DNA of 64,000 nt from Pseudomonadota bacterium (GTDB taxonomy: Bacteria; Desulfobacterota; Binatia; Binatales; Binataceae), in contig JAJPIL010000026.1 of NCBI GenBank assembly GCA_021324755.1, positions 1-64,000 on the forward strand, in the 5' to 3' direction. Numbering within the stretch: position 1 is the stretch's first letter; every line of letters starts with the position of its first letter. The translations under genes were made by a program, and so were the position numbers. The notes beneath the pieces were generated by a model. It made no database searches, was not told the DNA's origin, and saw nothing but the letters and a program-made list of their open reading frames with translations. This document shows, one piece after another, positions 1,353 to 19,333 of the stretch.

Positions 1353-3005
1353 ATGATCGATTTTCAGACCCAGCCTTCGCGCTACAAACATTGGAAGCTT
1401 GAATTCGACGGTCCGGTGGCGTGGCTTTTGATGGACGTGAACGAACATGGGGGGCTCCATCCGGGCTACGAACTTAAGTTGAACTCGTACGACTTGGGCG
1501 TGGATATCGAGTTGTACGATGCCGTGCAGCGGCTTCGTTTCGAGCATCCGGAGGTCCGTTCAGTCGTGCTGACGTCAGCCAAGGACCGCGTGTTTTGCGC
1601 GGGGGCCAATATACGGATGCTCGCACAGGCAGATTATGCCTTTAAGGTAAACTTTTGTAAGTTCACTAATGAAACAAGGTTGGCCATGGAAGACGCTTCC
1701 GCCTTCTCCGGCCAAACCTGGATTGCGGCGATAAACGGACCCTGCGCCGGCGGCGGTTATGAGCTCGCACTGGCCACCGAGTATATACTGATGGCGGATG
1801 ACGGCAACACCTCGGTGGCCTTGCCTGAGCTGCCCCTGCTGGCCGTCTTGCCGGGTACCGGAGGGCTCACGCGCTTGGTCGACAAGCGAAAAGTCAGGCG
1901 CGACTTGGCAGACGTTTTCTGCACCACCGAGGAAGGCGTCAAAGGAAGCCGGGCGGTAGAATGGCGCTTGGTTGACGAACTGGTTACCCGCAGTAGACTG
2001 CGGCAGACGGCCTTGGCGCGGGCGCGAGAGTTCGCAAGCCGCTCTGATCGTCCCGATGGGGCGCAGGGGATCGTTCTTACGCCGATCGTTCGCACGGTCG
2101 AGCAGGACCGGATCGCCTACCAGGACCTTACCCTAACTTTTGACCGGTACCGAAAAGTGGCGAGTTTCGAGGTGCAGGCACCCGCCGTGGCACCGCCTGC
2201 CAGTGTCGAGGCGATGGTCGCCCTGGGTGCCGACTTTTGGCCGCTGCGATTGGCACGCGAGCTCGAAGACGCGATCCTCCATTTGCGCTTCAACGAGGAC
2301 GCACTAACAACGTGGGTTTTCAAAACGCGCGGAGAGCTATCCACGGTCGCCGCCTATGACCAGTTCTTGTGGAAGAACCGAAGCCATTGGCTCGTGCGCG
2401 AGATCGTCCTTTACTGGAAGCGTGTGTTGAAACGTCTTGACGTTTCCTCGCGCTCGCTGTTTGCGGTGATCGAGCCCGGATCGTGCTTCGTGGGGATGCT
2501 GTTCGAGTTGGCTCTGGCCGCTGACCGCTCGTACATGCTTTCGGGAACCTTTGACGGCAGCCAAAGCGAACCGGCTCGTATTGCGCTCAGCGAGTTAAAT
2601 TTTGGGTCGTTACCGATGGCGAACGGGTTGAGCCGCTTAGAGACGCGGTTTTGGCATGACCGCGAAGCTTTGCGCCGGCTGCGTGAAACCGTGCTGGGCC
2701 ACGAGCTCGAAGCCGAGCAAGCATTTGAGTTGGGCTTAATTACGGCGGCTCCGGACGAAATCGACTGGGAAGACGAGCTTAGGTTGGCATTGGAGGAAAG
2801 GGCCGCTTTTTCCCCAGACGCGCTTACGGGGCTCGAGGCGTCGCTGCGGTTCGTCGGTCCTGAGACGCTCGAAACTAAGATTTTCGGGCGCCTTTCCACT
2901 TGGCAGAACTGGATCTTCCTGCGGCCCAATGCGACGGGGGAAAAGGGAGCACTTAGGCGCTACGGCACGGGACTGCGCGCTGATTTCGACGGGAGGCGAG
3001 TATGA
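1353..3005 (+). CDS. boxC: benzoyl-CoA-dihydrodiol lyase BoxC
   Basis: BoxC opens the ring of 2,3-epoxybenzoyl-CoA hydrolytically, releasing formate and giving 3,4-dehydroadipyl-CoA semialdehyde in the aerobic CoA-dependent benzoate (box) pathway. The 550-residue length matches the family. The N-terminal crotonase half shows FCAGANIRML and the oxyanion segment NGPCAGGGYELALATEYI; the long C-terminal half is specific to BoxC. The start ATG gives MIDFQTQPSRYKHW, typical for the family. The stop overlaps the boxB start (ATGA), so the two are translationally coupled. BoxA, the reductase partner, and BoxD are not in the window. Confidence 0.93.
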   Translation: MIDFQTQPSRYKHWKLEFDGPVAWLLMDVNEHGGLHPGYELKLNSYDLGVDIELYDAVQRLRFEHPEVRSVVLTSAKDRVFCAGANIRMLAQADYAFKVNFCKFTNETRLAMEDASAFSGQTWIAAINGPCAGGGYELALATEYILMADDGNTSVALPELPLLAVLPGTGGLTRLVDKRKVRRDLADVFCTTEEGVKGSRAVEWRLVDELVTRSRLRQTALARAREFASRSDRPDGAQGIVLTPIVRTVEQDRIAYQDLTLTFDRYRKVASFEVQAPAVAPPASVEAMVALGADFWPLRLARELEDAILHLRFNEDALTTWVFKTRGELSTVAAYDQFLWKNRSHWLVREIVLYWKRVLKRLDVSSRSLFAVIEPGSCFVGMLFELALAADRSYMLSGTFDGSQSEPARIALSELNFGSLPMANGLSRLETRFWHDREALRRLRETVLGHELEAEQAFELGLITAAPDEIDWEDELRLALEERAAFSPDALTGLEASLRFVGPETLETKIFGRLSTWQNWIFLRPNATGEKGALRRYGTGLRADFDGRRV

Positions 3006-4420
3006 GCAGTGTCAATTACTCCGAGCGTATTCCCAATAATGTAAACCTTGCTGAGGACAGACGGCTCAGGCGGGCTTTGGAGCAATGGCAGCCGCGTTTT
3101 TTGGATTGGTGGCGCGAGATGGGGCCTCAGGCGTTTAAGACCAATGAAGTGTACTTGCGGACGGCAGTATCGGTCGACGCGGCTGGATGGGCTCAATTTG
3201 GCTTCGTGCGGATGCCCGAGTACAGATGGGGGATTTTCTTGGCCGAGCCACAACCTGGCAGGACGATCGCCTTCGGCGAGCACAAGGGCGAACCTGTATG
3301 GCAGGAGGTCCCAGGAGAGTATCGCGGCGCTCTGCGGCGCTTAATCGTAGTGCAAGGCGACACCGAGCCCGCGTCGGTGGAACAACAACGAGCCCTCGGC
3401 CGGACGGCGCCATCGCTTTACGACTTGCGCAACCTATTCCAGGTCAACGTCGAAGAAGGACGCCATCTGTGGGCGATGGTCTACCTCCTACACAAGTTCT
3501 TTGGCCGTGACGGACGCGAAGAGGCGGACGAGCTTTTGAATCGGCATTCGGGCGATAAAGACAAACCCCGGATCCTGGGCGCCTTCAACGAAGACACGCC
3601 GGACTGGCTTTCGTTTTTTATGTTCACGTTTTTTACCGACCGCGACGGTCGCTTTCAGCTCGCCGCGCTCGCTGAGTCGGGTTTCGATCCGCTTGCTCGC
3701 ACCTGCCGCTTCATGTTGACCGAAGAGGCTCATCACATGTTCGTAGGCGACACCGGCGTGGCGCGGATCGTTCGGCGAACGTGCGAGCTTATGCGTGAGC
3801 ATGATACTGACCAGGTTGGGAAATATGGCGGGATCGATCTAGCGCTCATCCAGAAGTACCTCAACTTCCATTATTCGGTCTCGCTCGACCTTTTCGGTTC
3901 GGAGCTTTCCACGAATGCTGCAAACTATTACGCGATGGGGCTCAAGGGGCGGTATCAGGAAGAAAAGCTCGCCGACGACCATCGTTTGCAAGGCTCAACC
4001 TATCCAGTCGTAACTCCCGAGGGTTCAACGATTGACGTCAAAGAGGTGCCTGCCCTGGCCGCACTTAACGAGAGGCTTCGCGACGACTATATCGCTGATT
4101 GTCAAAAGGGCGTGGAGCGCTGGAATCGAATAATTCGAGCTGCAGGGATCGATTTCGAGCTCAAACTGCCGCATCGCGGTTTTAACCGCAAGGTGGGGCA
4201 TTTCGCCGGCCTATGGATAACGCCCGAAGGTCGAATTGTCTCGGAACAGGAATGGCGCAGCAACGAGGCAAAATGGCTTCCGACACAGGCCGACAAGGAA
4301 TTTGTCGCCTCACTCATGCGCCCCGTGATCGAGCCTGGTAAGTTTGCAGCCTGGATTGCACCGCCTGCCAGAGGTATAAATGGCAAACCTATCGACTTCG
4401 AGTACGTGCGTATAGATTGA
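3002..4420 (+). CDS. boxB: benzoyl-CoA 2,3-epoxidase oxygenase subunit BoxB
   Basis: BoxB is the di-iron oxygenase that epoxidises the aromatic ring of benzoyl-CoA with O2, using electrons from the BoxA reductase. The 472-residue length is normal. Two ExxH iron-ligand motifs are visible: E152-G-R-H155 and E242-A-H-H245 (in TEEAHHMF), offset by two from the positions known in Azoarcus BoxB. It overlaps boxC by four bases, and a boxC-boxB order is common. The gene ends the operon here; the following hydrolase is about 210 bases away. Presence of an O2-dependent benzoyl-CoA route argues for an aerobic lifestyle. Confidence 0.93.
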   Translation: MSSVNYSERIPNNVNLAEDRRLRRALEQWQPRFLDWWREMGPQAFKTNEVYLRTAVSVDAAGWAQFGFVRMPEYRWGIFLAEPQPGRTIAFGEHKGEPVWQEVPGEYRGALRRLIVVQGDTEPASVEQQRALGRTAPSLYDLRNLFQVNVEEGRHLWAMVYLLHKFFGRDGREEADELLNRHSGDKDKPRILGAFNEDTPDWLSFFMFTFFTDRDGRFQLAALAESGFDPLARTCRFMLTEEAHHMFVGDTGVARIVRRTCELMREHDTDQVGKYGGIDLALIQKYLNFHYSVSLDLFGSELSTNAANYYAMGLKGRYQEEKLADDHRLQGSTYPVVTPEGSTIDVKEVPALAALNERLRDDYIADCQKGVERWNRIIRAAGIDFELKLPHRGFNRKVGHFAGLWITPEGRIVSEQEWRSNEAKWLPTQADKEFVASLMRPVIEPGKFAAWIAPPARGINGKPIDFEYVRID

Positions 4421-15142: not shown

Positions 15143-15426
15143 CGAGCTCTAGCTTCTGCCTGGCAAGCTTAGGTTCGGCACCGAGAAGCGCGCCCCCTGA
15201 GTTTCTCCAGCCCATTTTGCGACTCATTCATAGAGGCTTGGCCGAGCTATGGAGGAGGGCAAGCTGCGATGAGTCAAGTTGCCTTTTCTAGTGTATCCGC
15301 GTTAGGAACTCTGCAGTGATTCGAGCGGGGCATTAGCAGGGGATCAACACTAGATAGTTTCTGCTGTTCACGGCCGGACACACGTATCCAAGTGCTTTTG
15401 CGCTGACGTTTTAGAGGAGGTGTAGA

Positions 15427-16419
15427 ATGGCAAGAATTTTTCAGCCAAACGAGGTCGACAAAAGTGTACTCGCAGGCAAGACTATCGCGGTTATCGGCTA
15501 CGGCAACCAGGGCAGAGCGCAAGGGCTTAATTTGCGTGCGCGGGGCTACCGAGTGATCGTTGGAAACCGCCAGGACGAAAGCTATCGGAAAGCGCAGGAG
15601 GACGGTTTTGAGGTTTATTCGATGGACAGGGCGGCCGCTTTGGCCGACGTCGTTATGTTGCTCGTGCCGGATGAGGTGGCACCGGCGATTTTCAAAGATG
15701 CCATCCTTCCAAATCTTGCCAAAGGGAACGCGTTAGTGATGGCGAGCGGGTACAACGTCACGTATCGCCACATCGTAGCGCCAGAAGGAGTGGACGTAGT
15801 GATGGTGGCGCCTCGGATGATAGGCCAGGGCGTGCTCGAGCTGGCGCAACGAGGCGAAGGCTTCCCCGTCTTAATTGGAGTTCATCAGGATGCGACCGGC
15901 AAAGCGCTTGCTCTGGCTTTGGCGCTCGCCGACGGTATAGGCGGCTTTTTGCCTCACGGGGTAGTGGTCGAATCAAGTTTCGAGGAAGAAACGTTGGTTG
16001 ACTTGTTCACCGAACACACGTGGGCAGGTGCTTTTCTCTACATGCTGGAGAAAGCGTATCAGGTTTTGGTTTCCGAAGGTGTAAGCCCAGAAGTTGCGAT
16101 TTTGGAACTTTATGGCTCTGGCGAGATCGGCGAGATCGGTCGCGCGATGGCAACGCATGGGCTATGGCGCCAGCTCAAGTTACATTCGCATACTAGCCAA
16201 TTTGGCCAGCTGACCCACGGCGCCGCTTTCGTGGGTCCGGAAGTGGAAAAGCTTATGCGCAAAGCGATCGAGGAGATCCGCAACGGCGAGTTCGATAAGC
16301 GCTGGACTGCAGAACAAGCGGCGGGCCTCCCCACATTCCAGCAACTGCTCGACAGCGTGCTTTCGTCGCCGCTTTCGAAGGCTGAAGACCAGCTGTACGC
16401 GAGACTTGGTAGACGCTAA
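15427..16419 (+). CDS. ketol-acid reductoisomerase-like protein with altered active site
   Basis: The 330-residue protein has the class I KARI architecture: an N-terminal Rossmann domain (TIAVIGYGNQGRAQGLNL) and a knotted C-terminal domain (ESSFEEETLVDLF). Compared from memory with Pseudomonas IlvC, the Asp and Glu in ETxxDLFxE, one later metal-site Glu and the substrate-binding Ser are kept. However, the catalytic His of the AHG motif is Ser (MASGYNV), the Lys of APKGPGH is Arg (APRMIGQ), and the second Glu of ExxxE is Ser. It has a strong AGGAGG ribosome-binding site and no ilvB/N/D neighbours. Branched-chain synthesis is therefore doubtful; a paralogue with another reductase or isomerase role is plausible. 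Confidence 0.8.
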   Translation: MARIFQPNEVDKSVLAGKTIAVIGYGNQGRAQGLNLRARGYRVIVGNRQDESYRKAQEDGFEVYSMDRAAALADVVMLLVPDEVAPAIFKDAILPNLAKGNALVMASGYNVTYRHIVAPEGVDVVMVAPRMIGQGVLELAQRGEGFPVLIGVHQDATGKALALALALADGIGGFLPHGVVVESSFEEETLVDLFTEHTWAGAFLYMLEKAYQVLVSEGVSPEVAILELYGSGEIGEIGRAMATHGLWRQLKLHSHTSQFGQLTHGAAFVGPEVEKLMRKAIEEIRNGEFDKRWTAEQAAGLPTFQQLLDSVLSSPLSKAEDQLYARLGRR

Positions 16420-17648: not shown

Positions 17649-18161
17649 TCACTTGACGGGAGAAACCGCTTTGGAGCTTTCGCCTTGGCCGTGTTGCGCC
17701 GCGCCGGATGTCTCGACTTGTTCGAACAGCGCGCGCTCTTGCTCGCGCAGGCTTCGCCACCGGGCCCAAAGCTCGGAGGCTCTGGCGAGCTGTTGGGTCG
17801 ACATAATCTTTCGTGCTTCGAGCGCGAATCTCACGCGCGCGTCAACTAAAGCTGCCTGTGCTTCCTTTAGCTTTGTTACCTCAGGAGTGGGGTCGATCGT
17901 TTTTTCAGGGGAAAGGAGTTTCGTGATAAGTGCCCATCTGGCTTGGCGTAACTGTTCGTGTAGCAAGTCGAGGTGTGCTCGGTCGCTCATGAAAAGGGCG
18001 TGAAGTTGCCTGCGTTGCTCGGGCTCGAGCACGGACATAAGCGGCGCAAGCTCAATCGCGTGTGCACCGTGCTTTTCCAGGTGAAACGCTGACGCTGCTA
18101 GCGCGCCGAACGCTGAAGTCCCGACAAGTGCCAGAAGCGAAAGTTGCACCAAACGTTTCAT
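17649..18161 (-). CDS. periplasmic Spy/CnrX-like protein
   Basis: The 170-residue protein has a signal peptide (MKRLVQLSLLALVGTSAFGALAASA) and a mature part that is almost entirely charged alpha-helix. It shows a histidine-rich start (FHLEKHGAH) and LEPEQRRQLHALF, like the LTxxQ-type helices of Spy/CpxP or of the heavy-metal sensor family that includes CnrX. It is the third gene of an operon with an ECF sigma factor and a zinc-finger anti-sigma factor. By analogy with CnrX-CnrY-CnrH it may sense metal or envelope stress and control the anti-sigma factor. That role is inferred from context. Confidence 0.7.
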   Translation of the reverse strand: MKRLVQLSLLALVGTSAFGALAASAFHLEKHGAHAIELAPLMSVLEPEQRRQLHALFMSDRAHLDLLHEQLRQARWALITKLLSPEKTIDPTPEVTKLKEAQAALVDARVRFALEARKIMSTQQLARASELWARWRSLREQERALFEQVETSGAAQHGQGESSKAVSPVK

Positions 18162-18267
18162 TTGCGGCTTCCTCCCAGACCCAGGAAAACGTTACGACGA
18201 GAGCGCGCGCTCCATCCGGTAATCCTCGTGCCCGGCTCAGCCAAGTCTTTCGTACCACTCCGACTCA

Positions 18268-18798
18268 TCACGGTGTTTCCCCAGAAAACCAACTAGACGA
18301 ACAGGCGGGATCGAACGAATTGTCCCGGCTTGCGCAGCTGTCATCCTGCGAGAACGTATCCTCAAGGAAATTTACATAAGACAAAGCAACGGGAGTTATT
18401 GGATCGGATGCGCTGAGAGATTCAGAAGAACTGGCGAGCATTGTTTCACCAGGCATCACCCGGGCGACCGGCTGGGCCGTTGCTTGTGGAAGATGGCGTG
18501 CTAGCTTCTCTCCGCCGCGCATTTGCAAACTTTCGCCTATCCACATCCCGGCCATAAAAAGAAAAAGCGCACTCGCGCAAACCGGCGCGACAACCGCAAG
18601 TCTTGACCAAGACCTAGAACGTTCCGCCGCCTTCGGTGGCCGGCCGCGCAAGACGGCGCTGATCACCTTCATGTCCCCCGCTAATTTGCGATAGCGGCGG
18701 CTACACGGCAAGCATGCCTTGACGTGGTTTTGGACCGGCGCCGAGGCTTCGTTTAGGAGAAGCTCGATCAAGTCCTGCTCTTTTAAGCATCCGCCCAC
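18268..18798 (-). CDS. zinc-finger anti-sigma factor
   Basis: The 176-residue protein begins with a putative anti-sigma zinc-finger domain in which HVKACLPC supplies the HxxxCxxC ligands. One membrane helix follows at about residues 66-87 (VVAPVCASALFLFMAGMWI), and an extracytoplasmic tail contains two cysteines (DDSCAS, DPACSS). This topology fits an anti-sigma factor that holds its ECF sigma factor at the membrane and reads a periplasmic signal. It starts 7 bases after the sigma gene stop, so the two are co-transcribed. Confidence 0.83.
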   Translation of the reverse strand: MGGCLKEQDLIELLLNEASAPVQNHVKACLPCSRRYRKLAGDMKVISAVLRGRPPKAAERSRSWSRLAVVAPVCASALFLFMAGMWIGESLQMRGGEKLARHLPQATAQPVARVMPGETMLASSSESLSASDPITPVALSYVNFLEDTFSQDDSCASRDNSFDPACSSSWFSGETP

Positions 18799-18805
18799 GG
18801 TAAAT

Positions 18806-19333
18806 CTAAGCCAAACCCTTTCTAAGATTATCTATGGCCCGAGTGAGATGGCGTTTAACGCTTCCTGGGGTCAAGCCTAATGCCTCGCTTACTTCCTGAG
18901 TGGACCAGCCTTCTATGTAACGCAATGCAAAAACCTCTTGCTGGCGTCGAGAAAGCTTGCGCAGTCGCTGCCAGATTCTCTCGTACTGCTCGCGCCTTAT
19001 GACTTGGTGCTCGACCGCTGCGTGCTCGTCCGGATATTCGCGCTCGTCGAAGTCATCGGTCGACTTAAGCCAACGTTTCCACCAACTTGACCGCCTTCGG
19101 TCGCGGCATGTGTTGATAGCGACCGTCGTAAGCCATCGCGGCCACGACTCCGGCATGCTGTTGTTGCCCCAATAGTCCAGCGCTTTAACGAAAACCTCCT
19201 GAGCTACATCTTCGGCCTCCTCGGGATTAGAGAGAAGAATGCGACATAACCGCAAGATGCGGCCATGATGCTCCTGGTAAAGCTTTTGATAATCGGGGCC
19301 GAAGCTGGGCGGCTTGCTCAAACTTGTCCTCAC
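18806..19333 (-). CDS. ECF RNA polymerase sigma factor
   Basis: A 175-residue extracytoplasmic-function sigma-70 factor. Region 2 shows EEAEDVAQEVFVKAL followed by WLTTVAINTCRDRRR, and region 4 shows LSRRQQEVFALRYIEGWSTQEVSEALGLTPGSVKRHLTRA, a clear helix-turn-helix. It is the first gene of a three-gene operon with its anti-sigma factor and a Spy/CnrX-like protein, and is likely autoregulated. A TATACT sequence lies about 15 bases upstream of the start codon on its strand, but the -35 element is unclear. Confidence 0.92.
   Translation of the reverse strand: MRTSLSKPPSFGPDYQKLYQEHHGRILRLCRILLSNPEEAEDVAQEVFVKALDYWGNNSMPESWPRWLTTVAINTCRDRRRSSWWKRWLKSTDDFDEREYPDEHAAVEHQVIRREQYERIWQRLRKLSRRQQEVFALRYIEGWSTQEVSEALGLTPGSVKRHLTRAIDNLRKGLA

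Follow-up and report, generated by a model that had tools for sequence, protein, structure and literature searches.

Locus and gene product

The window, which is the whole 64,000-nt stretch of DNA that was analyzed, carries a gene for a protein resembling ketol-acid reductoisomerase (KARI) at 15427-16419 (Table 1). The first-pass annotation had called it with the right coordinates and strand, and it is a real gene. A kelch-repeat gene lies upstream and a convergent SDR gene downstream, so the KARI-like gene is probably transcribed alone. Elsewhere in the window, two adjacent genes (1353-4420) resemble by sequence boxC and boxB, the pair of the benzoyl-CoA epoxidase pathway. The reverse strand at 17649-19333 carries an ECF sigma factor (Pfam-confirmed), then two small proteins; these had no Pfam match and resemble an anti-sigma factor and a periplasmic sensor of the metal-resistance type.

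The product matched the Pfam domains KARI_N (E 1e-56) and KARI_C (E 2e-29). It passed the broad model TIGR00465 (249.6 vs. a cut-off of 226.15) and failed PRK05479, the equivalog model for canonical IlvC (270 vs. a cut-off of 336). An AF2 model, built from 43 subfamily sequences, predicted a class I KARI fold with high confidence (mean pLDDT 96.7, pTM 0.91). The top PDB matches of this model were KARIs only, and Sso-KARI from Saccharolobus solfataricus ranked first. Domains, model, and PDB matches agreed in placing the protein in the KARI fold family, with a Rossmann domain and a knotted helical domain.

Table 1 Positions of the KARI-like gene and of its diagnostic residues in the window
Feature	Position	Strand	Evidence or conservation
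AGGAGG (Shine-Dalgarno-like, strong RBS)	15415..15420	+	6 bases upstream of ATG, direct sequence reading
KARI-like gene, 330 aa	15427..16419	+	ORF; PF07991 and PF01450 matches
Asn47, cofactor loop (VGN)	15565..15567	+	N in 93% of 54 subfamily sequences; L in 82% of 130 canonical
Ser107, replacing His of AHG	15745..15747	+	H in 130/130 canonical; S in 44/54 subfamily
Arg130, replacing Lys of APKGPG	15814..15816	+	K in 130/130 canonical; R in 53/54 subfamily (98%)
Glu188, retained active-site acid	15988..15990	+	Invariant, canonical and subfamily
Asp192, retained	16000..16002	+	Invariant, canonical and subfamily
Glu196, retained metal ligand	16012..16014	+	Invariant, canonical and subfamily
Glu227, first Glu of E-x5-E metal motif	16105..16107	+	Invariant, canonical and subfamily
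Insertion Gly230-Ser231, displacing second metal Glu	16114..16119	+	0/130 canonical, 54/54 subfamily; helix break in model
Glu233, second Glu of E-x5-E (previously read as lost)	16123..16125	+	Invariant in both groups, gapped alignment
Ser254, retained active-site Ser	16186..16188	+	Invariant, canonical and subfamily

Active site

Residues were compared in 184 aligned sequences, of which 130 were canonical and 54 carried an insertion (the protein studied here and 53 relatives). Two substitutions reported in the first-pass annotation were borne out: AHG reads ASG (Ser107) and APKGPG reads APRMIG (Arg130), and neither the canonical His nor the canonical Lys is present. A third, the replacement of a Glu of the metal-binding ExxxE by Ser, was an artefact of ungapped alignment. 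When gaps were allowed against canonical KARIs and the 53 relatives, Glu227 and Glu233 paired with the metal-binding Glu pair, and the Ser in question, Ser231, was an inserted residue. Both Glu are present because a two-residue insertion converts E-x3-E to E-x5-E (ELYGSGE vs. ECLH--E). Thus, the four metal acids of canonical IlvC (D, E, E, E) were all found, as Asp192, Glu196, Glu227, and Glu233, with the wider spacing in the last pair. According to the metal-site description in PMC5940873, the Asp equivalent to Asp192 bridges both Mg2+ in KARI. The AF2 model shows the KARI fold, and Glu188, Asp192, Glu196, and Ser254 are retained as well. In the model, the helix is interrupted exactly at the insertion (221-230, then 233-244), a break that may allow Glu227 and Glu233 both to reach the metals.

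All canonical sequences (130/130) had the His and the Lys and lacked the insertion. Among the 54 insertion-bearing sequences, Arg was found in 53 and Ser in 44; 43 combined Ser with Arg, 10 His with Arg, and 1 Ser with Lys. The Ser-Lys combination (L153, from genome G231) was the sole case among the 184 sequences and lay on a very long branch. Ser231 and Asn27 were invariant in the insertion group only. Because the two canonical residues were universal in one group and mostly replaced in the other, the residue pattern is not a product of chance.

A second subfamily

In an unrooted tree of 78-79 sequences without a class II outgroup, a branch with full support set all canonical class I sequences apart. 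On this tree, the insertion changed once, Lys/Arg once or twice, and His/Ser three times. A single clade for all Ser-bearing members was rejected (p-AU 0.008), so Ser was gained or lost more than once. The sequence features co-varied across the subfamily in both alignment and tree. The protein shares with the Sso-KARI type the APRMxG motif, the E-x5-E insertion, the cofactor-loop Asn, and the position in the tree. By these sequence characters, the gene belongs to a second, ancient subfamily within the class I KARI fold, the Sso-KARI type. Two archaeal genomes also had a divergent KARI relative close to an AOR-like gene (L305, genome G231; L312, genome G194).

Two altered catalytic residues might be expected of a decaying or catalytically dead copy of ilvC. 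Against this, NG86 dN/dS among orthologs in the family of the host was 0.04-0.27, which shows purifying selection; saturated dS underlies the lowest values, and the closest pair, L084/L085, gave 0.05-0.09. The reading frames were open in the copies among the matches listed, and the metal ligands were invariant. The subfamily is old, is present in archaea and bacteria, and has invariant residues of its own. Purifying selection and conservation ruled out a pseudogene, and a dead enzyme is extremely improbable.

Gene neighborhood

In the loci examined, no neighbors were conserved across lineages, and shared neighbors were limited to genera or small clades. An assignment of function from gene neighborhood was dropped for this reason. 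No ilv genes adjoined members with Ser and Arg in any of the Ser/Arg loci examined.

Three neighborhoods of relatives are described here. In genome G500 (L298, 5093-10393), a His-retaining member lies upstream of an ilvB-ilvN-ilvC operon and is separated from it by a single gene, of the Asp/Glu racemase family; no other locus examined connected the subfamily with ilv genes. In genome G084 (L295, 4288-7778), a His-containing member is followed after approximately 0.6 kb, in the same orientation, by a ThDP-dependent enzyme whose domains are divided between two overlapping ORFs (TPP_N+M, then TPP_C); a frameshift may be the cause. In one archaeal subclade (L309, 6103-10978, and L200), the gene begins 1-2 bases past a gene for a D-2-hydroxyacid dehydrogenase and faces one for an HpcH/HpaI aldolase, which hints at hydroxy- or keto-acid metabolism.

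Occurrence with and without the branched-chain pathway

The earlier remark that the gene stands without ilv genes was right for the neighborhood. The check that it had proposed, for a second, canonical ilvC, gave a positive result: the host genome has one elsewhere, adjoining ilvH, and also has ilvD and ALS (ilvB). Orthologs were found in eight other genomes of the host family (63-79% identity), and all eight also had a canonical KARI (seven by protein query, the eighth by PF07991). The subfamily gene is patchy in this family (nine genomes including the host), in which canonical ilvC is nearly universal. Remoter members occurred elsewhere in the class and phylum of the host and in Actinomycetospora, whose genomes with the gene carry a second KARI too; they were also widespread in the archaeal phylum to which L011 belongs. 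A scan of a viral sequence collection with the Sso protein gave no match. A third, weaker KARI_N match was observed within a 921-residue open frame of one genome (G092:C72:13172-13675).

The archaeal members were 45-50% identical to the protein studied here. At this distance their role need not match its role.

Counts of KARI_N genes showed the subfamily gene to be the sole KARI in several archaeal genomes, among them G393, G414, G424, G434, and G472. In these five genomes, ilvD had no match and no ALS scored above the curated cut-off; ALS-like proteins under the cut-off were found in G434 and G472 (379 and 400 bits). Archaeal genomes with canonical ilvC had both ilvD and ALS in the same comparison. 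Thus, presence of the gene was not tied to ALS and ilvD in the five archaea, whereas the host has both. G424, the one pathway-less genome of the five examined as a full sequence, is a single near-complete contig of 1,496,453 bases. A tblastn search of this whole contig found the subfamily gene and panB. Queries for ALS (bacterial and archaeal), for ilvD, and for canonical ilvC, and a fragment of 2-isopropylmalate synthase type, revealed no gene of these kinds. G414, G424, and G434 share synteny and therefore may represent one loss.

Three further genomes had only this KARI together with part or all of the pathway. G426, a fragmented assembly, had ilvD and ALS; G422 and the bacterium G769 (95% complete) had ilvD and no ALS over the cut-off.

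Mainly because archaea keep the gene without ALS, ilvD, and canonical ilvC, a role outside branched-chain synthesis is favored. The same observation weighs against an auxiliary isoenzyme of branched-chain synthesis, set apart chiefly by the cofactors it uses (NADH and NADPH) or by the conditions. Such an isoenzyme would fit the retention of every metal-site acid, the full pathway that the host offers it to serve, the His-containing relative beside the ilvB-ilvN-ilvC operon, and the treatment of the closest solved relative, Sso-KARI, as a KARI with Mg2+, NADPH, and ligand. It fits less well with the patchy distribution in the host family and with the replacement, throughout the branch of this protein, of two residues from which no canonical KARI departs (100% conservation). 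On balance, an isoenzyme is possible but not probable.

The panB gene of G424 also bears on ketopantoate reduction for coenzyme A synthesis, an activity known in KARIs. These enzymes are promiscuous 2-keto-acid reductases, and in Corynebacterium glutamicum ketopantoate reductase activity is encoded by ilvC only (work cited in PMC4353338). The tblastn search of G424 gave no PanE, but a later profile search detected a PanE-type ORF adjoining panB. A strong PanE is present in the host genome (259.5 bits vs. a cut-off of 141) and PanE is also present in relatives that have the gene. No genome among the host, the relatives, and G424 needed the step and lacked PanE. The presence of PanE makes a ketopantoate reductase very unlikely.

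Proposed function

The first-pass annotation had argued from the residue changes to a non-canonical function. The genomic evidence does speak for a role apart from routine branched-chain synthesis; the residue argument is weak because one of the three changes was an alignment slip and Sso-KARI carries the same Ser and Arg. If Sso-KARI turns over acetolactate, Ser and Arg at these sites are no obstacle to KARI chemistry, and the residue changes by themselves neither rule out that chemistry nor establish a new function. The better evidence for another role is the coexistence of the gene with a full canonical pathway, the lack of adjoining ilv genes in the Ser/Arg loci examined, and its persistence in pathway-less archaea.

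We lean toward an Sso-KARI-type enzyme that acts as a 2-keto-acid reductase or reductoisomerase with Mg2+ and NAD(P)H, and whose physiological substrate is neither acetolactate nor acetohydroxybutyrate. The enzyme would bind two Mg2+ and NAD(P)H, probably accepting both cofactors through the Asn47 loop, as suggested by the solved relative. A 2-keto acid, probably hydroxylated, would be held on the metals and reduced there, with or without a prior alkyl shift. Turnover of acetolactate would then be a side activity. Several observations run against this explanation: Sso-KARI is described as a KARI and has been cited among NADH-dependent or bispecific ones, and is reported to act on acetolactate; the His-retaining relative in G500 lies beside an ilvB-ilvN-ilvC operon; no neighbor is conserved across lineages; and the losses in G414, G424, and G434 are perhaps one.

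In a narrower form of the same explanation, with which its probability overlaps, the enzyme would be a reductase without the isomerase step, and its substrate would be a 2-keto acid, either simple or hydroxylated. Several active-site mutants of E. coli KARI lose isomerase activity and keep reductase activity. The genes for D-2-hydroxyacid dehydrogenase and HpcH/HpaI aldolase near the archaeal members would suit such a reductase, a link limited to one subclade. The isomerase and reductase activities of KARI are separately measurable, and the reductase takes several 2-keto acids (work cited in PMC4353338 and PMC5940873). On the other side stands Sso-KARI itself, with the same Ser and Arg. It reportedly turns over acetolactate, and we consider loss of the isomerase step rather unlikely.

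For the subfamily as a whole, chances are about even that it is a widespread, unrecognized second KARI subfamily of archaea and bacteria, which performs a dedicated step, dependent on Mg2+ and NAD(P)H, in a pathway other than branched-chain synthesis and is routinely misannotated as IlvC. Passing TIGR00465 leads to an automatic IlvC label, which would in turn predict a false branched-chain step in archaea that have only this gene. If the function is separate, Sso-KARI, the KARI most studied by cryo-EM, may have been assayed with a non-native substrate. The subfamily also serves as a natural experiment for telling the KARI residues that the alkyl shift requires from those that reduction requires.

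Relation to characterized enzymes

Sso-KARI ("Putative ketol-acid reductoisomerase 2"; PDB 6jcv, 6jcz, and 6jd2) is the only solved and the only characterized member type of the subfamily. It is 46-47% identical to the protein studied here and shares ASGYN, APRMxG, E-x5-E, the VGN loop, and the fold; it differs in being archaeal and in being handled as a branched-chain KARI. The PDB titles name complexes with Mg2+ and NADPH, and with NADPH plus ligand. Sso-KARI reportedly converts acetolactate in vitro and owes its bispecificity to an Asn in the cofactor loop. In PMC8615647, Sso-KARI appears as ref. 13 among NADH-dependent or bispecific KARIs. In the literature examined, it is not treated as a subfamily apart.

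Canonical class I KARIs (IlvC; e.g., Sac-KARI, 5yeq, and the ilvC of the host) have in common with this protein the fold, the domains, the four metal acids, the conserved Ser, and the cofactor site. At 33-39% identity, they differ in the His, the Lys, and the E-x3-E spacing, all replaced here, and the canonical ilvC of the host adjoins ilvH, whereas the gene studied here does not. Sac-KARI, from the same group as the Sso-KARI work, has the canonical metal site D191, E195, E227, and E231, as given in PMC5940873.

PanE belongs to the same superfamily and catalyzes a reaction that KARIs can perform; it is of a different family, and the host has a separate PanE. BurG (PDB 7pcc and others), compared here by identity and title only, is approximately 34% identical to this protein, far below Sso-KARI, and is encoded by a specialized biosynthesis gene. 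As a KARI homolog recruited to another reaction, according to the title of PMC9359912, it provides a precedent for a KARI with another function.
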